Shown one piece after another: positions 8,726 through 40,180 of a stretch of 40,180 nt of DNA. Position 1 is the first letter of the stretch, and each line of letters starts with the position of its first letter. Position numbers and translations under genes: made by a program. The notes under the pieces were generated by a model. The model saw only the letters and a list, made by a program, of their open reading frames with translations. It made no database searches and had not been told where the DNA came from. The DNA is from Pirellulales bacterium (GTDB lineage: Bacteria; Planctomycetota; Planctomycetia; Pirellulales; UBA7805): positions 1 through 40,180 of the forward strand of contig JASMGX010000006.1 of assembly GCA_030751095.1 (NCBI GenBank). Reading direction: 5' to 3'.

Positions 8726-9256
8726 ATGCAAATTGAAGACCACTTTAAAAATATTTCACTCATCCTAAGCGACGTGGACGGTGTTCTTACCGACGGCGGA
8801 ATCCTTTTCGACAATGAAGGCATTGAAACAAAACAGTTTCACATTCAGGACGGCTTGGGGATCCAGCTTTGGCAAAGGGCCGGTCACCGCTTTGGCCTGG
8901 TCACTAGCCGCTCATCGCATGTCGTGCAACTTCGTGCTAATGAGTTGGGCATCGATATTGTGCGACAGGGATTTCAAGAAAAGCTTCCGGTCGTCCAAGA
9001 CATTATCGCCAAAGAAAATCTGACGGCGGAGCAGGTCTGCTATATCGGAGATGACCTGCCCGATTTAGCCGTTTTTAATTGCGTTGGATTAACAGCTACG
9101 GTGGCCGATGCGGCGCGCGATGTTCAACATGCCGCAATGGTTGTTTTAGATCGCTGTGGAGGTAAGGGTGCTATTCGTGAACTTCTCGAACGCATCTTGC
9201 GATCACAGGGCCGCTGGGAGGAATTGCTCCTTCGTTACACCAGAAAGGATGCCTGA
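8726..9256 (+). CDS. kdsC: 3-deoxy-D-manno-octulosonate 8-phosphate phosphatase (HAD, KdsC type)
   Basis: LILSDVDGVLTDGGI, GIQLWQRAGHRFGLVTSR, YIGDDLPDLAVFNCVGLTATVADA; directly downstream of kdsD. Confidence 0.92.
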   Translation: MQIEDHFKNISLILSDVDGVLTDGGILFDNEGIETKQFHIQDGLGIQLWQRAGHRFGLVTSRSSHVVQLRANELGIDIVRQGFQEKLPVVQDIIAKENLTAEQVCYIGDDLPDLAVFNCVGLTATVADAARDVQHAAMVVLDRCGGKGAIRELLERILRSQGRWEELLLRYTRKDA

Positions 9257-21672: not shown

Positions 21673-22530
21673 TTGAACATCCATCCTACCGCCATCATTG
21701 ATAGCAGTGCCATACTCGGTGACGATGTGGAGATTGGCCCCTTTTGTATTGTTGAAAAGGATGTGCTTCTCGGTGACCGCTGCCAACTGGTCAGCCGTGC
21801 CACCATCAAAGAAGGAACCCGCATGGGCGAAAACAATTGCGTCCATGAAGGAGCCATTTTAGGCGGACTGCCCCAGCACATACAACTTCCGGAAACCACC
21901 GGTTCTCTACAAATTGGCAACGGCAACACCTTTCGTGAAAACACGACCGTCCATCGCGGATTGCACGAAAAAGATAAAACCATGATTGGCGATGGCAATC
22001 TGATTATGGTCGGAGCCCATGTTGGTCATGATTGTCATATTGGCCACCATGTGGTTTTAATCAATAACGTGATGATTGCTGGACATGTCACCATTGGAGA
22101 CCGGGCTTATGTCGCAGGTGGGGCAGCCGTTCAACAATTTCGTCGTGTCGGTCAACTTGCTGCGGTCGGTGGCTACGCACGGGCCGTCAAGGACGTGCCC
22201 CCCTTTGTAACACTCGACGGTTACACGAGTGGAGTAGTCGGCCTTAACCGGGTTGGATTGCAACGCGCCGGTTATAAGCCCAATGAGATCACAGCTCTCA
22301 AAAATGCCTATCGCCTCATCTATCGCAGTGGGCTTCCCTGGAAGGAAATCCTGGAGCGATTAAAAACCGATTTTCCATCCGGTCCGGCAGCTGATTTTTA
22401 TTCATTTCTTGCCGACGGAAAATATGGTTTTATGCCGGAACGACGCACCCCTGCATCTGCGACAATCAAGCTCTATCGTGAAGATGGTTTCGAAGCTGAA
22501 GGGCAGCAGTCGTTGACGAAAGTCGGCTAA
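21673..22530 (+). CDS. lpxA: Acyl-ACP--UDP-N-acetylglucosamine O-acyltransferase
   Basis: TTG start; left-handed beta-helix hexapeptide repeats (IHPTAIIDSSAILGDDVEIGPFCIVEKDV), HVGHDCHIGHHVVLINNVMIAGHVTIGDRAYVAGGAAVQQF, C-terminal LpxA-type helical region. Confidence 0.93.
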   Translation: MNIHPTAIIDSSAILGDDVEIGPFCIVEKDVLLGDRCQLVSRATIKEGTRMGENNCVHEGAILGGLPQHIQLPETTGSLQIGNGNTFRENTTVHRGLHEKDKTMIGDGNLIMVGAHVGHDCHIGHHVVLINNVMIAGHVTIGDRAYVAGGAAVQQFRRVGQLAAVGGYARAVKDVPPFVTLDGYTSGVVGLNRVGLQRAGYKPNEITALKNAYRLIYRSGLPWKEILERLKTDFPSGPAADFYSFLADGKYGFMPERRTPASATIKLYREDGFEAEGQQSLTKVG

Positions 22531-22563
22531 CACGGATCGGCTAACACGGGTCGGCTCCCGCGG
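22522..22563 (+). repeat. 14-bp tandem repeat, 3 units, overlapping the lpxA stop codon
   Basis: gtcggctaacacgg / atcggctaacacgg / gtcggctcccgcgg. Confidence 0.95.
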
Positions 22564-22602
22564 AGAGATTTCAACCGGCGGAGTTCTTCGTCGATCGTAT
22601 TA

Positions 22603-24540
22603 TCAGTCCACAATATCCCGCTCCCTGAGCAGTGCCATAATGGCCTCAACACAGGACTCGATCGGCACCGAGTGGGGCTCAAGAGTGAGATCGGCAGAGA
22701 CAGGCTCCTCATAGGCCGTAGTAATGCCTGGAAAGTTCATAATTTCTCCAGAATCTGCCATCGCATACATCCCGTTCGTATCTCTCTCCCGGCAGACCTC
22801 AACGGGAACATCCAGAAAGACCTCAAAAAACCTTTCCGAGCCAACAACTTCTCTGGCTCGATTCCGAACTTCTTTTCTTGGGGCAAGAAAACTGGCAATC
22901 GTGATCAGTCCGACATCATTTAAAATTCTCGCACATTCAGCAGCCCGCCTCATATTTTCGCTGCGCCCTTCTGGAGTAAATCCGAGATCCTTACTGACAC
23001 CAAGTCGCATCTTTGGCCCATCCAACACAGCACAGGCACGCCCCGCATCGAACAGATGTCGTTCGAGGGCCTGGGCAACATCTCGTTTTCCGGAACCGGT
23101 AAGCCCCGTAATCAGAATCGTCGCACCTCGCTGACCAAAGCGAGCTGCTCGCTCTTCATCCGTAACCTGACTCGATCTCTCCTGCATCTCGGCACTGACT
23201 GGTTCTGCATCCCAGTGATCCTGGGAGGGACCACCCTGCATTTCATCCAAAATCATCACCGCACCAACTGTCACATTGGTAATCCGGTCGATAATGATCA
23301 TGGACCCGGTACCTCGATTCCGTTTGTAGGAATCAAATTGTATGACATCATCAAGATCGATTTCGCAGCGGCCAATCTCATTCAGGGACAATGATGGTGC
23401 TGGCTGGCGGTGCAGAGTATTGATATCAATGCGATAGCGCAAGGACTGTACCGTTCCAGGTACAACCTTCGTCGTCTGCTTGAAGAGGTACTGCGTACCG
23501 GGCACCATCGGTTCCTCACCCATCCAGACAACCATGGCATCCATCCGCTGACTCACGCGCGGCTGATTTCCCACGCGTACAATCATGTCGCCACGACTGG
23601 CGTCAATTTCATCTTCGAGAGTTAGGGTAACCGATTGCGGCGTGAAAGCCTCTTCAATATCTCCATCAATCGTAGTAATCGACTTTACACGACTGGTTTT
23701 GCGCGAAGGCAACACCATGATCTCATCACCCTTTTGAATGGTTCCGGATGCAACCATTCCGCAAAAACCGCGGAAATCAAGGTGCGGTCGGTTCACATAC
23801 TGCACGGGAAAACGAAAATCCTGCAGATTGCTGTCCGAGGCAATGTAAACATTTTCGAGCATGTGCATCAGCGTATTACCGTCATACCACGGCATGTTTT
23901 TGCTGCGGACAACCACATTGTCACCATCGAGTGCCGAGATGGGAATAAAGTGAACGTCGTCCGAGGACATTCTGGCGGCAAACTGTATGTATTCATCTCT
24001 GATGTTCTGATACACCTCCTGCGAATATTCAACGAGATCCATCTTGTTGATTGCCACAACAACATGCTTTACCCCCAACAAGGATGTGATGAAGCTATGC
24101 CGCTTGGTTTGCGTCAATACTCCTTTGCGCGCATCGATGAGAATGATTGCCAAATCACAAGTGGAAGCACCCGTGGCCATATTCCGCGTGTACTGCTCGT
24201 GTCCCGGGGTGTCGGCAATGATGAATTTTCGCTTGGCGGTCGAAAAATAACGGTATGCTACATCGATCGTGATCCCTTGTTGCCTCTCATCATCGAGTCC
24301 GTCGGTGAGGAGAGCCGGGTCGAGTCGACTGCCAATGGTTCCATGGGTTTGCGAGTCTTTCTCCAGTGCTGCCAACTGGTCCTCATAGACCATCTTGGCC
24401 TCGATCAACATCCGACCGATGAGGGTGCTTTTACCGTCATCGACACTGCCACATGTCAAAAACCGCAGCAGCTCTTTCTGCTCGTGCTGTTTCAGATAAG
24501 CATCGATATCGGAGGAAATTAGTTCTGATTGGTGCGACAT
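22603..24540 (-). CDS. cysNC: Bifunctional sulfate adenylyltransferase subunit 1 / adenylylsulfate kinase
   Basis: FLTCGSVDDGKSTLIGRML, DTPGHEQYTRNMATGAS, NKMDLV (EF-Tu-like GTPase), then CysC domain TGLTGSGKRDVAQALERHLFDAGRACAVLDGPKMRLGVSKDLGF. Confidence 0.94.
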   Translation of the reverse strand: MSHQSELISSDIDAYLKQHEQKELLRFLTCGSVDDGKSTLIGRMLIEAKMVYEDQLAALEKDSQTHGTIGSRLDPALLTDGLDDERQQGITIDVAYRYFSTAKRKFIIADTPGHEQYTRNMATGASTCDLAIILIDARKGVLTQTKRHSFITSLLGVKHVVVAINKMDLVEYSQEVYQNIRDEYIQFAARMSSDDVHFIPISALDGDNVVVRSKNMPWYDGNTLMHMLENVYIASDSNLQDFRFPVQYVNRPHLDFRGFCGMVASGTIQKGDEIMVLPSRKTSRVKSITTIDGDIEEAFTPQSVTLTLEDEIDASRGDMIVRVGNQPRVSQRMDAMVVWMGEEPMVPGTQYLFKQTTKVVPGTVQSLRYRIDINTLHRQPAPSLSLNEIGRCEIDLDDVIQFDSYKRNRGTGSMIIIDRITNVTVGAVMILDEMQGGPSQDHWDAEPVSAEMQERSSQVTDEERAARFGQRGATILITGLTGSGKRDVAQALERHLFDAGRACAVLDGPKMRLGVSKDLGFTPEGRSENMRRAAECARILNDVGLITIASFLAPRKEVRNRAREVVGSERFFEVFLDVPVEVCRERDTNGMYAMADSGEIMNFPGITTAYEEPVSADLTLEPHSVPIESCVEAIMALLRERDIVD

Positions 24541-37981: not shown

Positions 37982-39424
37982 ATGTTTTTTCTCACAAAAT
38001 CGCTGCGACGGCCCCTGAGGTGCTTTCTGTTGCTGGCACTCCTTGCCGCTAGCTGCTTGCCTGTTGAGGCCGGTTCTCCGCTGCGTCGCATTAAACCGCC
38101 GCAGCGCGTAACGGGCCCGATCGTGCCAGCACCCAAAAACTGGGGATACCGGCCCACACGCTGGACCCGCTGGGAAAATGCCGCTGTCCACCCGCCACTC
38201 GGTCCGATACCACCCGAGAGCGACTCGGAACCTCCGAGCAAGGCGGACGACGATGCCGAACCGATCGAGACACCGCCACCGGTTGAACAAGAAGATGACG
38301 GCAACTCACCACATTCGCTTCCCGATCTTCCACCACTTCCACCACTGCCACTCGATGACGGACCGCCACAAATCCCTGACAACTTTGACGACGATCTGCC
38401 ACCGCTACCCGGACAGCTGCTGCTCAAAACAAAACCTCAAAAAACCGTACCCACCCCGGTAGAGCCGCAAGGCGGGCCGGCTCAAAAAGCGGTGCCAGAT
38501 GCGAGCGGACCCCAGTTTCGCGATCCCGATGCTATCTTTGATCAAAAGACGCCGACCGGCAAATCACCGAGTGGACCGCAAAAACCGGCCGCCCCACTGC
38601 CAGAGCTCGAGGGCCCACTGCCCACGCTACCGCAAGCAGAAAAACCGGAGGCCAAAAACATTCCGCCCACCCCGAAGCAGCCGGCAGCTCCGCCAACGCC
38701 TGGGGCACCAAAGCTGGATATCAAGCCCGAGGTGAAAACGGAGACCGGGCCCGCATCGCCGCCCCCGGAGCCCGATTGGGTCAAACGCTCCGACAAGAAA
38801 CAAGGCAAAGAGAAAACGAACGGGCAAAAAAAGCAGCCCTTCTACGACCCCGATTCGATCTTCGATCAAAAGCCGTCCAAGGAGAAGCCCGCCGAGGAAA
38901 AGGAACAAGAGAAGCCCGAGGGAGAGAAAAAAACAGATAGCCGCTGGCAACCTGCCGGCCGAAAAGGAACGCCCCAAATCTCCTCGCGCGCAGCAGAGCA
39001 AGCGCACCGGCTCCGAAAAACGTCGGGCGTAGAGACCACAGACTCGAGCAAACCAAAGACCGATGCGGGCGGCTGGCAGGCGGTCGGTCCCAAGCGGACC
39101 GAACCCTCCGCTTCGAAGAAGCAACCACCCAAGGCGATCCGGCGGGATTACCTGGTCCGCCCGGCGGGGCACGCATCGAACATGTCGGCCCCGGCATCCG
39201 CAGAGAAAACGACATCTGCAGAGAAACCGGCACCTGCACAAAAACAGACTCCAAAAGCGGGCGGCACCGACGTACCGGCCCGCCCGGAGCAAAATCCTCT
39301 ACGCAGCGCAACGGTGCCACAGCAACGCCGCATCGCCACAGAGCCACCGCCCGCCAGAGAGTCGCTCGTCAACCGGCTCCGCGAGCCGGTCTCGGGCACC
39401 AGCCCGGCCAACCCACTCCGCTAA
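37982..39424 (+). CDS. Secreted proline-rich low-complexity protein
   Basis: Signal peptide LTKSLRRPLRCFLLLALLAASCLPVEA; NWGYRPTRWTRW motif; P/E/K-rich; repeated DPD[AS]IFDQK and [RG]WQ[PA][AV]G motifs; GGAGGG upstream. Confidence 0.75.
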   Translation: MFFLTKSLRRPLRCFLLLALLAASCLPVEAGSPLRRIKPPQRVTGPIVPAPKNWGYRPTRWTRWENAAVHPPLGPIPPESDSEPPSKADDDAEPIETPPPVEQEDDGNSPHSLPDLPPLPPLPLDDGPPQIPDNFDDDLPPLPGQLLLKTKPQKTVPTPVEPQGGPAQKAVPDASGPQFRDPDAIFDQKTPTGKSPSGPQKPAAPLPELEGPLPTLPQAEKPEAKNIPPTPKQPAAPPTPGAPKLDIKPEVKTETGPASPPPEPDWVKRSDKKQGKEKTNGQKKQPFYDPDSIFDQKPSKEKPAEEKEQEKPEGEKKTDSRWQPAGRKGTPQISSRAAEQAHRLRKTSGVETTDSSKPKTDAGGWQAVGPKRTEPSASKKQPPKAIRRDYLVRPAGHASNMSAPASAEKTTSAEKPAPAQKQTPKAGGTDVPARPEQNPLRSATVPQQRRIATEPPPARESLVNRLREPVSGTSPANPLR

Positions 39425-39498
39425 GCGGGCGATAGTGGCTAAAGTGGTCTGCAACGAAGGGCTGCACAGCCGCCATTCTTTCCGAATACAAAAATCCC

Positions 39499-39990
39499 AT
39501 GATTGTTCCCCAGATGCCTGCCGATGCCCGCAAGCACGAGCACTACATGCAGCTGGCGATCGAACAGGCTCGCCAGGCGGAGGCCGCGGGCGATGTGCCG
39601 GTCGGGGCGGTGATCGTGCGCGATGGCCAGCTCGTGGCCGCCGCGCACAACCAGCGGGAACAGCTCGGAGACCCGACGGCCCATGCCGAGATGATCGCCA
39701 TCACGCAGGCGGCCGAGGCGGTCGGCAGCTGGCGGCTCACCGGCTGCACACTCTACGTGACGCTCGAACCGTGTCCGATGTGCGCGGGGGCCATTTTGCA
39801 GGCCCGTCTGCCACAGCTCATCTACGGGGCGGCCGATCCGAAGGCGGGGGCTGTAACCTCGCTTTATCAACTCTTAGAAGACCGGCGTCTGAATCACACC
39901 GTCAGCGTGACCGAGGGCGTACTCGGTGCCGAGTGCGGCAAGCTGCTGAGCGATTTCTTTGCCGAGCAGCGACGACTGGGGAAAAAGTAA
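39499..39990 (+). CDS. tadA: tRNA-specific adenosine deaminase
   Basis: HYMQLAIEQARQAEAAGDVPVGAVIV, HAEMIAI, LYVTLEPCPMCAGAILQAR. Confidence 0.94.
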   Translation: MIVPQMPADARKHEHYMQLAIEQARQAEAAGDVPVGAVIVRDGQLVAAAHNQREQLGDPTAHAEMIAITQAAEAVGSWRLTGCTLYVTLEPCPMCAGAILQARLPQLIYGAADPKAGAVTSLYQLLEDRRLNHTVSVTEGVLGAECGKLLSDFFAEQRRLGKK

Positions 39991-40018
39991 CGCCCGGCTC
40001 ACACTGGCAATACGAACT

Positions 40019-40088
40019 CACGGTGTCGACATCACAGTGTTGAAATTACGGTGTCGTCATCACAGTGTCGTCATCACGGTGTCGACCC
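40019..40088 (+). repeat. 14-bp tandem repeat, 5 units
   Basis: cacggtgtcgacat / cacagtgttgaaat / tacggtgtcgtcat / cacagtgtcgtcat / cacggtgtcgaccc. Confidence 0.95.
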
Positions 40089-40180
40089 TGGGTCAATTCC
40101 GTTGTAGGCCCCGGCCGGTGTCATCATGTTGTGATACTTCCGGCTAGTTTCATCCGCCAGATCGGGATCTTGGTCGACAA
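40074..40180 (-). CDS. C-terminal fragment of a minus-strand CDS running off the window
   Basis: Minus-strand reading VDQDPDLADETSRKYHNMMTPAGAYNGIDPGSTP* is open to the edge and protein-like; absent from the ORF track because it has no start in the window. Confidence 0.55.
   Translation of the reverse strand, partial: VDQDPDLADETSRKYHNMMTPAGAYNGIDPGSTP

Follow-up and report, generated by a model that had tools for sequence, protein, structure and literature searches.

The question raised by this locus is why a short tandem array carries a stop codon in each of its units, and whether those stops are its function or a by-product of its origin. The window, i.e. the whole stretch of DNA analysed, is an entire contig of 40180 bp from a metagenome-derived genome (469 contigs, 82% complete). 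The array is located near the contig end, where two genes converge:

39499..39990, + strand: tadA-like tRNA adenosine deaminase gene on the left of the convergent pair (with orthologues in the family; PF14437, PF00383)
39991..40073, no strand: convergent tadA/DUF1559 spacer of 83 bp, filled by the array (31 bp in G008 and G009)
40019..40088, no strand: five-unit 14-bp tandem array CACRGTGTCGWCAT (register and TRF)
40074..40180, - strand: DUF1559 / SBP_bac_10 pseudopilin-like CDS, truncated by the contig end, 3' part only (congener matches; PF07596 on the G009 orthologue)

The units follow each other in exact 14-bp register (40019-40032, 40033-40046, 40047-40060, 40061-40074 and 40075-40088), and TRF detected them with a score of 89 at period 14 (14 bp x 4.9) and of 106 at period 28, in agreement with the original prediction. 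The alternation of two unit types (A-B-A-B-A) that had also been proposed applies to unit position 4 alone, position 11 (A, A, T, T, A) departing from the pattern. Reading of the plus-strand triplets confirmed a minus-strand stop at every junction, at the positions predicted: TCA is present at 40074-40076, 40060-40062, 40032-40034 and 40018-40020, and TTA at 40046-40048. The first of these stops (TGA, 40076-40074) sits in the gene-proximal unit and, as was anticipated, terminates the edge CDS itself, whose translated C-terminus ends in ...NMMTPAGAYNGIDPGSTP followed by the stop. This C-terminus matches full-length DUF1559 / SBP_bac_10 genes at the equivalent place in the congeners G008 and G009. 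Since unit 5 lies almost wholly within the CDS, the extra copies are units 1 to 4 (56 bp). Without these four units, the spacer would measure 27 bp (83 - 4 x 14), which is close to the 31 bp of the congeners. Consecutive units do close all three reading frames, as had been pointed out, but this is automatic whenever a repeated unit contains a stop and its length is not divisible by three. Similarly, the C to T change within the array does keep the stop, but it represents one single event.

The array was then compared with known classes of elements. A genome search for its consensus, which had been suggested as a check for related sites, returned the window array as the only site in this assembly. 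With its unit at one site and no motif common to the arrays described below, it does not belong to a dispersed repeat family (REP/BIME or other). Its head-to-tail organization, with a unit within the range of about 10-60 bp, is that of a minisatellite or VNTR, and copy number varying among relatives, the other hallmark of that class, was observed for the arrays as a class (11/11 loci compared with the sister species G007). No Rfam match at E <= 1 was obtained within 39300-40180, which gives no indication of a structured RNA, and no site resembling an intrinsic terminator (hairpin plus T-tract) was found within 39400-40180. The RNA fold z values at the array locus were -0.3 and -1.9 for the two strands. 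The viral contigs searched contained no match to the locus. A general CAC-GTG element (CACNGTGNCG in tandem) was considered across 297 genomes of the order and was rejected, its matches being about as numerous as those of a backwards control. Near the opposite contig end, the window also bears a 24-bp direct duplication, ACCATGATGTGTCGACTCAGCCGG (198-244).

The stop-to-stop spacers between tadA and DUF1559 in G008 and G009 bear no array. No close tadA orthologue was found in G007, and the window array was therefore compared only with these congeners with a 31-bp spacer. In G004, which belongs to another genus, the orthologous tadA-DUF1559 spacer has a 15-bp array of its own, CACAGTGCCGATCGC (L093 2014-2050 / L131 3401-3437). 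Its unit is 4 edits away from that of the window, about 2% of random unit pairs being at least as close, and the resemblance may reflect either coincidence or a distant common origin. This G004 locus, like locus L123 mentioned below, came from searches aimed at this motif or gene.

In order to place the array in its genomic context, a census by gene orientation was made on 1.22 Mb, i.e. a third of this one incomplete genome, using a simple dicodon-model gene caller and TRF (period 10-30). Among the spacers of 30-299 bp, arrays were present in 25/86 convergent, 14/362 co-directional and 2/70 divergent ones, a convergent excess with an odds ratio of 10.7 (p = 1.6e-11). Label permutation (20,000 rounds) gave a mean of 6.8 array-bearing convergent spacers and a maximum of 16, against the 25 observed. 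The enrichment of arrays at gene ends that had been put forward as a test of the original prediction is therefore strong, but exists only at convergent ends. In spacers shorter than 300 bp, array density reached 3.4 per kb between convergent genes, compared to about 0.3 for co-directional and 0.16 for divergent pairs; the latter two values resemble those of the congeners and only the convergent one is raised. When gaps of at least 150 bp were considered, an array was found at most 60 bp from the stop for 18.8% of convergent stops vs 2.0% of co-directional ones, indicating that the effect is not due to available room. An autocorrelation test independent of TRF gave 18.1% vs 2.5%, and the excess held when only arrays of at least about three copies, or only high-scoring genes, were retained. 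Chance similarity is excluded as the origin of the arrays, because 400 kb of sequence drawn from a second-order Markov model of these convergent spacers contained no array with a period of 10-30. The genes flanking the arrays are ordinary ones, such as hisA-like/enoyl-CoA hydratase, aminotransferase/anthranilate synthase, rpsU, cvpA/accA and lpxA-like/cysN/C-like.

The last of these pairs is located in the window itself, where it provides a second array:

21673-22530, + strand: lpxA-like gene, left flank of the convergent pair
22523..22556, no strand: 14-bp array TCGGCTAACACGGA, 2.4 copies, across the TAA of the lpxA-like gene (TRF)
22531..22602, no strand: convergent spacer of 72 bp, lpxA-like / cysN/cysC-like
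22603-24540, - strand: cysN/cysC-like gene, right flank of the convergent pair

In G007 the same spacer measures 58 bp, 14 bp less than here.

The arrays have unrelated units, differing from locus to locus, and no motif family common to them was found. The units measure 12-19 bp or twice that, spacers shorter than 300 bp containing no unit below 10 bp or of 31-200 bp, and unit GC is 0.50. In 9/10 of the two-copy arrays the match run extends at most 2 bp beyond one unit, the lpxA array (6 bp) being the exception, which means that no pre-existing repeat is visible at most junctions. A flanking stop codon is included in 15/27 arrays, vs 9.3 +/- 2.3 expected from neutral placement at tolerated positions; this somewhat higher number counts against purely neutral placement. 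Many arrays exclude the stop of the flanking gene altogether. Where the stop is spanned in convergent pairs, the arrays extend no further than about one unit into the coding sequence, and in none of the 16 such gene ends does a copy of the stop precede the real one. In an array located elsewhere in the same genome (C3; L139 1787-1842), each 19-bp unit bears the stops of both convergent genes, TAG on the plus and TAA on the minus strand. Hairpin stability in array spacers showed no excess over shuffles, and T-tracts were present in 5/25 (20%) array-bearing convergent spacers vs 27/61 (44%) array-free ones (p = 0.049).

The age of the arrays can be appreciated from G007, a sister species with about 92% DNA identity at the hisA locus. 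None of 11 orthologous spacers in G007 contained a TRF-detectable array, while the flanks aligned cleanly and, at the best loci, the gaps were exact unit multiples. The hisA/enoyl-CoA hydratase spacer, for example, with 69 bp, exceeds its 13-bp counterpart in G007 by 56 bp (4 x 14), and the rpsU spacer has two degenerate copies in G007 and three here. Of 15 orthologous spacers that are array-free here, 11 differ by at most 6 bp, another lacks 14 bp in G007, and the remaining three carry large G007 insertions of 312 bp to 1.9 kb, these lengths being arithmetic from match coordinates. The convergent spacers of the other congeners were also without arrays (0/39); with G007 included, the congeners had 0/62, vs 25/110 in this genome (p = 6e-6). 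Likewise, no array was seen in 47 short convergent spacers from mixed planctomycete and other loci.

Outside the genus, a 16-bp x 5.6 array lies across a TGA in a convergent spacer of G231, from another family of the order (L123 1500-1589), and G004 has arrays in two convergent spacers. Such arrays are therefore not confined to one genome. Besides, the accA-cvpA spacer of the present genome contains ACGTCCGATAATGTATCTTATGTTCGTTT (C433; L165 about 9010-9043), which, compared by eye with E. coli dif, we take to be a dif-like XerCD site. A dif-like site also adjoins accA in G004 (L278) and partly in G006 (L272).

Within coding sequences, 45/47 tandem arrays are in frame. Their density is 45 per Mb here and 0-18 per Mb in congeners, and from this density and frame, duplication activity may be raised across the genome. 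In-frame coding arrays just before stops show only a non-significant trend towards convergent genes (6/247 vs 7/535), which counts against a hotspot at convergent ends.

Taken together, these features suggest, with a probability of about one half, that a recent wave of local tandem duplication, specific to this lineage and concentrated in convergent spacers, copied segments of 12-19 bp and produced the window array among others. The arrays are concentrated there, have unrelated units and, in most two-copy cases, little or no junction microhomology. They are absent from the orthologous spacers of the sister species and of other congeners, with exact-unit length differences at the cleanest loci. 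As to the mechanism, it is known from E. coli and yeast that positive supercoils build up in the region separating two convergent genes (PMC8360656). Here, the zone of the convergent 3' ends could promote breakage or re-synthesis, most likely through opposing RNA polymerases and trapped positive supercoils, and about 14 bp would thereby be duplicated; once two copies were present, slippage could add further ones. Purifying selection would set the upstream limit, as a duplication ending at or beyond the stop would spare the protein and one ending before it would not. This would explain why the arrays invade a gene by no more than about one unit. An array starting inside the gene would carry the stop codon into every copy, so that a stop in every unit is probably a by-product rather than a function and would need no selection. 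More tentatively, convergent gene ends might be hotspots of de novo 12-19-bp duplications, mostly without seed repeats, with head-on transcription or trapped positive supercoils as the driving force. In this lineage the process would have become fast enough to fill about a quarter of the short convergent spacers since the split from the sister species of ~92% identity. The link between arrays and colliding transcription is one that we infer.

The main rival is a role of the arrays as bidirectional terminators, roadblocks or insulators selected between convergent genes, where they would replace hairpin terminators. Their almost exclusive occurrence where two transcripts meet, the rarity of T-tracts in array-bearing convergent spacers and the mild excess of stop-spanning all point in this direction. 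We nevertheless regard this role as rather doubtful, as the units form no motif family, their hairpins are not more stable than those of shuffles, the sister species and congeners manage equivalent gene pairs without arrays, and most convergent spacers of this genome are array-free. A second possibility, which appears unlikely, is relaxed constraint alone: duplications would arise at a uniform rate and survive in convergent spacers, which are free of promoters. Selection evidently filters duplications, since the coding arrays are nearly all in frame, and the limit of about one unit at stop-spanning convergent ends fits the same idea. However, relaxed constraint predicts a similar density past co-directional stops, and this was not seen: long co-directional gaps are nearly as free close to the stop, yet have about tenfold fewer arrays in the equal-room test above, and co-directional and divergent densities remain at the level of the congeners. 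A higher duplication rate where transcripts meet is thus favoured.

The original prediction had offered two readings of the stops, a stop-dense cassette against translational read-through or chance slippage. The cassette, for which the stop in every unit of the 40019-40088 array and the 15 stop-spanning arrays would speak, now seems most improbable. Stop copies were kept in 25/29 full copies vs 22.1 expected (permutation p = 0.19, a test of low power), i.e. no better than other triplets; a less controlled count had given p = 0.03, and its significance disappeared on restriction to full copies. In addition, neutral placement already accounts for 9.3 +/- 2.3 stop-spanning arrays, many arrays do without the stop of the gene, and the strong predictor of an array is the presence of convergent neighbours, not a stop. 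Chance slippage is also insufficient by itself, given that convergent spacers have roughly tenfold more duplications than the others and that most junctions offer no repeat to slip on. An artefact of assembly or gene calling, to be feared with a fragmented, incomplete metagenome-assembled genome and a home-made gene caller, can be given almost no weight. The copies show point differences, coding arrays obey the reading frame, array neighbours are clear Pfam genes, the effect persists with high-scoring genes only and in the TRF-independent test, and the flanking sequences can be aligned cleanly with those of G007, the gaps at the best loci being exact multiples of the unit.

Two candidates for the machinery behind the duplication wave were considered. 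Ku-dependent end-joining is unlikely, Ku being missing throughout the genus sample. Loss of MutS appears doubtful as the cause: the MutS_V domain was not found in this genome or in G007, but neither was it found in G006, which is 99% complete and array-free. Since the domain is present in G008, G009 and other genera, mismatch repair was possibly lost in part of the genus.

The closest known counterparts are the tandem repeats of Borgs (PMC9879509), which also have locus-unrelated units of recent, independent origin, mostly missing at the corresponding places of relatives. Borg arrays may likewise be intergenic with the first unit in a gene end, and their coding units are divisible by 3. In contrast, Borgs are linear elements of archaea, and because nearly all of their genes lie on one strand, convergent pairs cannot drive their repeats. 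Furthermore, Borg repeats are perfect, without SNPs, and A-rich, whereas the 12-19-bp units described here have diverged, show no enrichment in A and are tied to convergent pairs. Bacterial minisatellites or VNTRs (PMC6749651, PMC2884548) are similar as short head-to-tail arrays with copy numbers varying between relatives. No mention of convergent genes and no tie to gene orientation was found in these two surveys, whereas the present arrays are tied to gene orientation; in PMC6749651 most long-repeat satellites were multiples of 3 and likely coding. REP and BIME elements (PMC3733652) are also intergenic repeats, for which functions in termination and supercoiling have been proposed, but REPs are dispersed palindromic families, while here each array has its own sequence and no hairpin excess. 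No earlier report of arrays tied to convergent genes was found in the open-licence literature.

Little is known of how minisatellites are born, since such events are seldom observed. In this genome the sister species allows many of them to be dated, and most point to the place where two transcripts meet. An array can also acquire a stop in each of its units without selection acting on stops. These observations suggest that the collision zones of head-on genes generate new repeats, and they turn head-on transcription, or trapped positive supercoiling, as a source of tandem duplications into a directly testable question.
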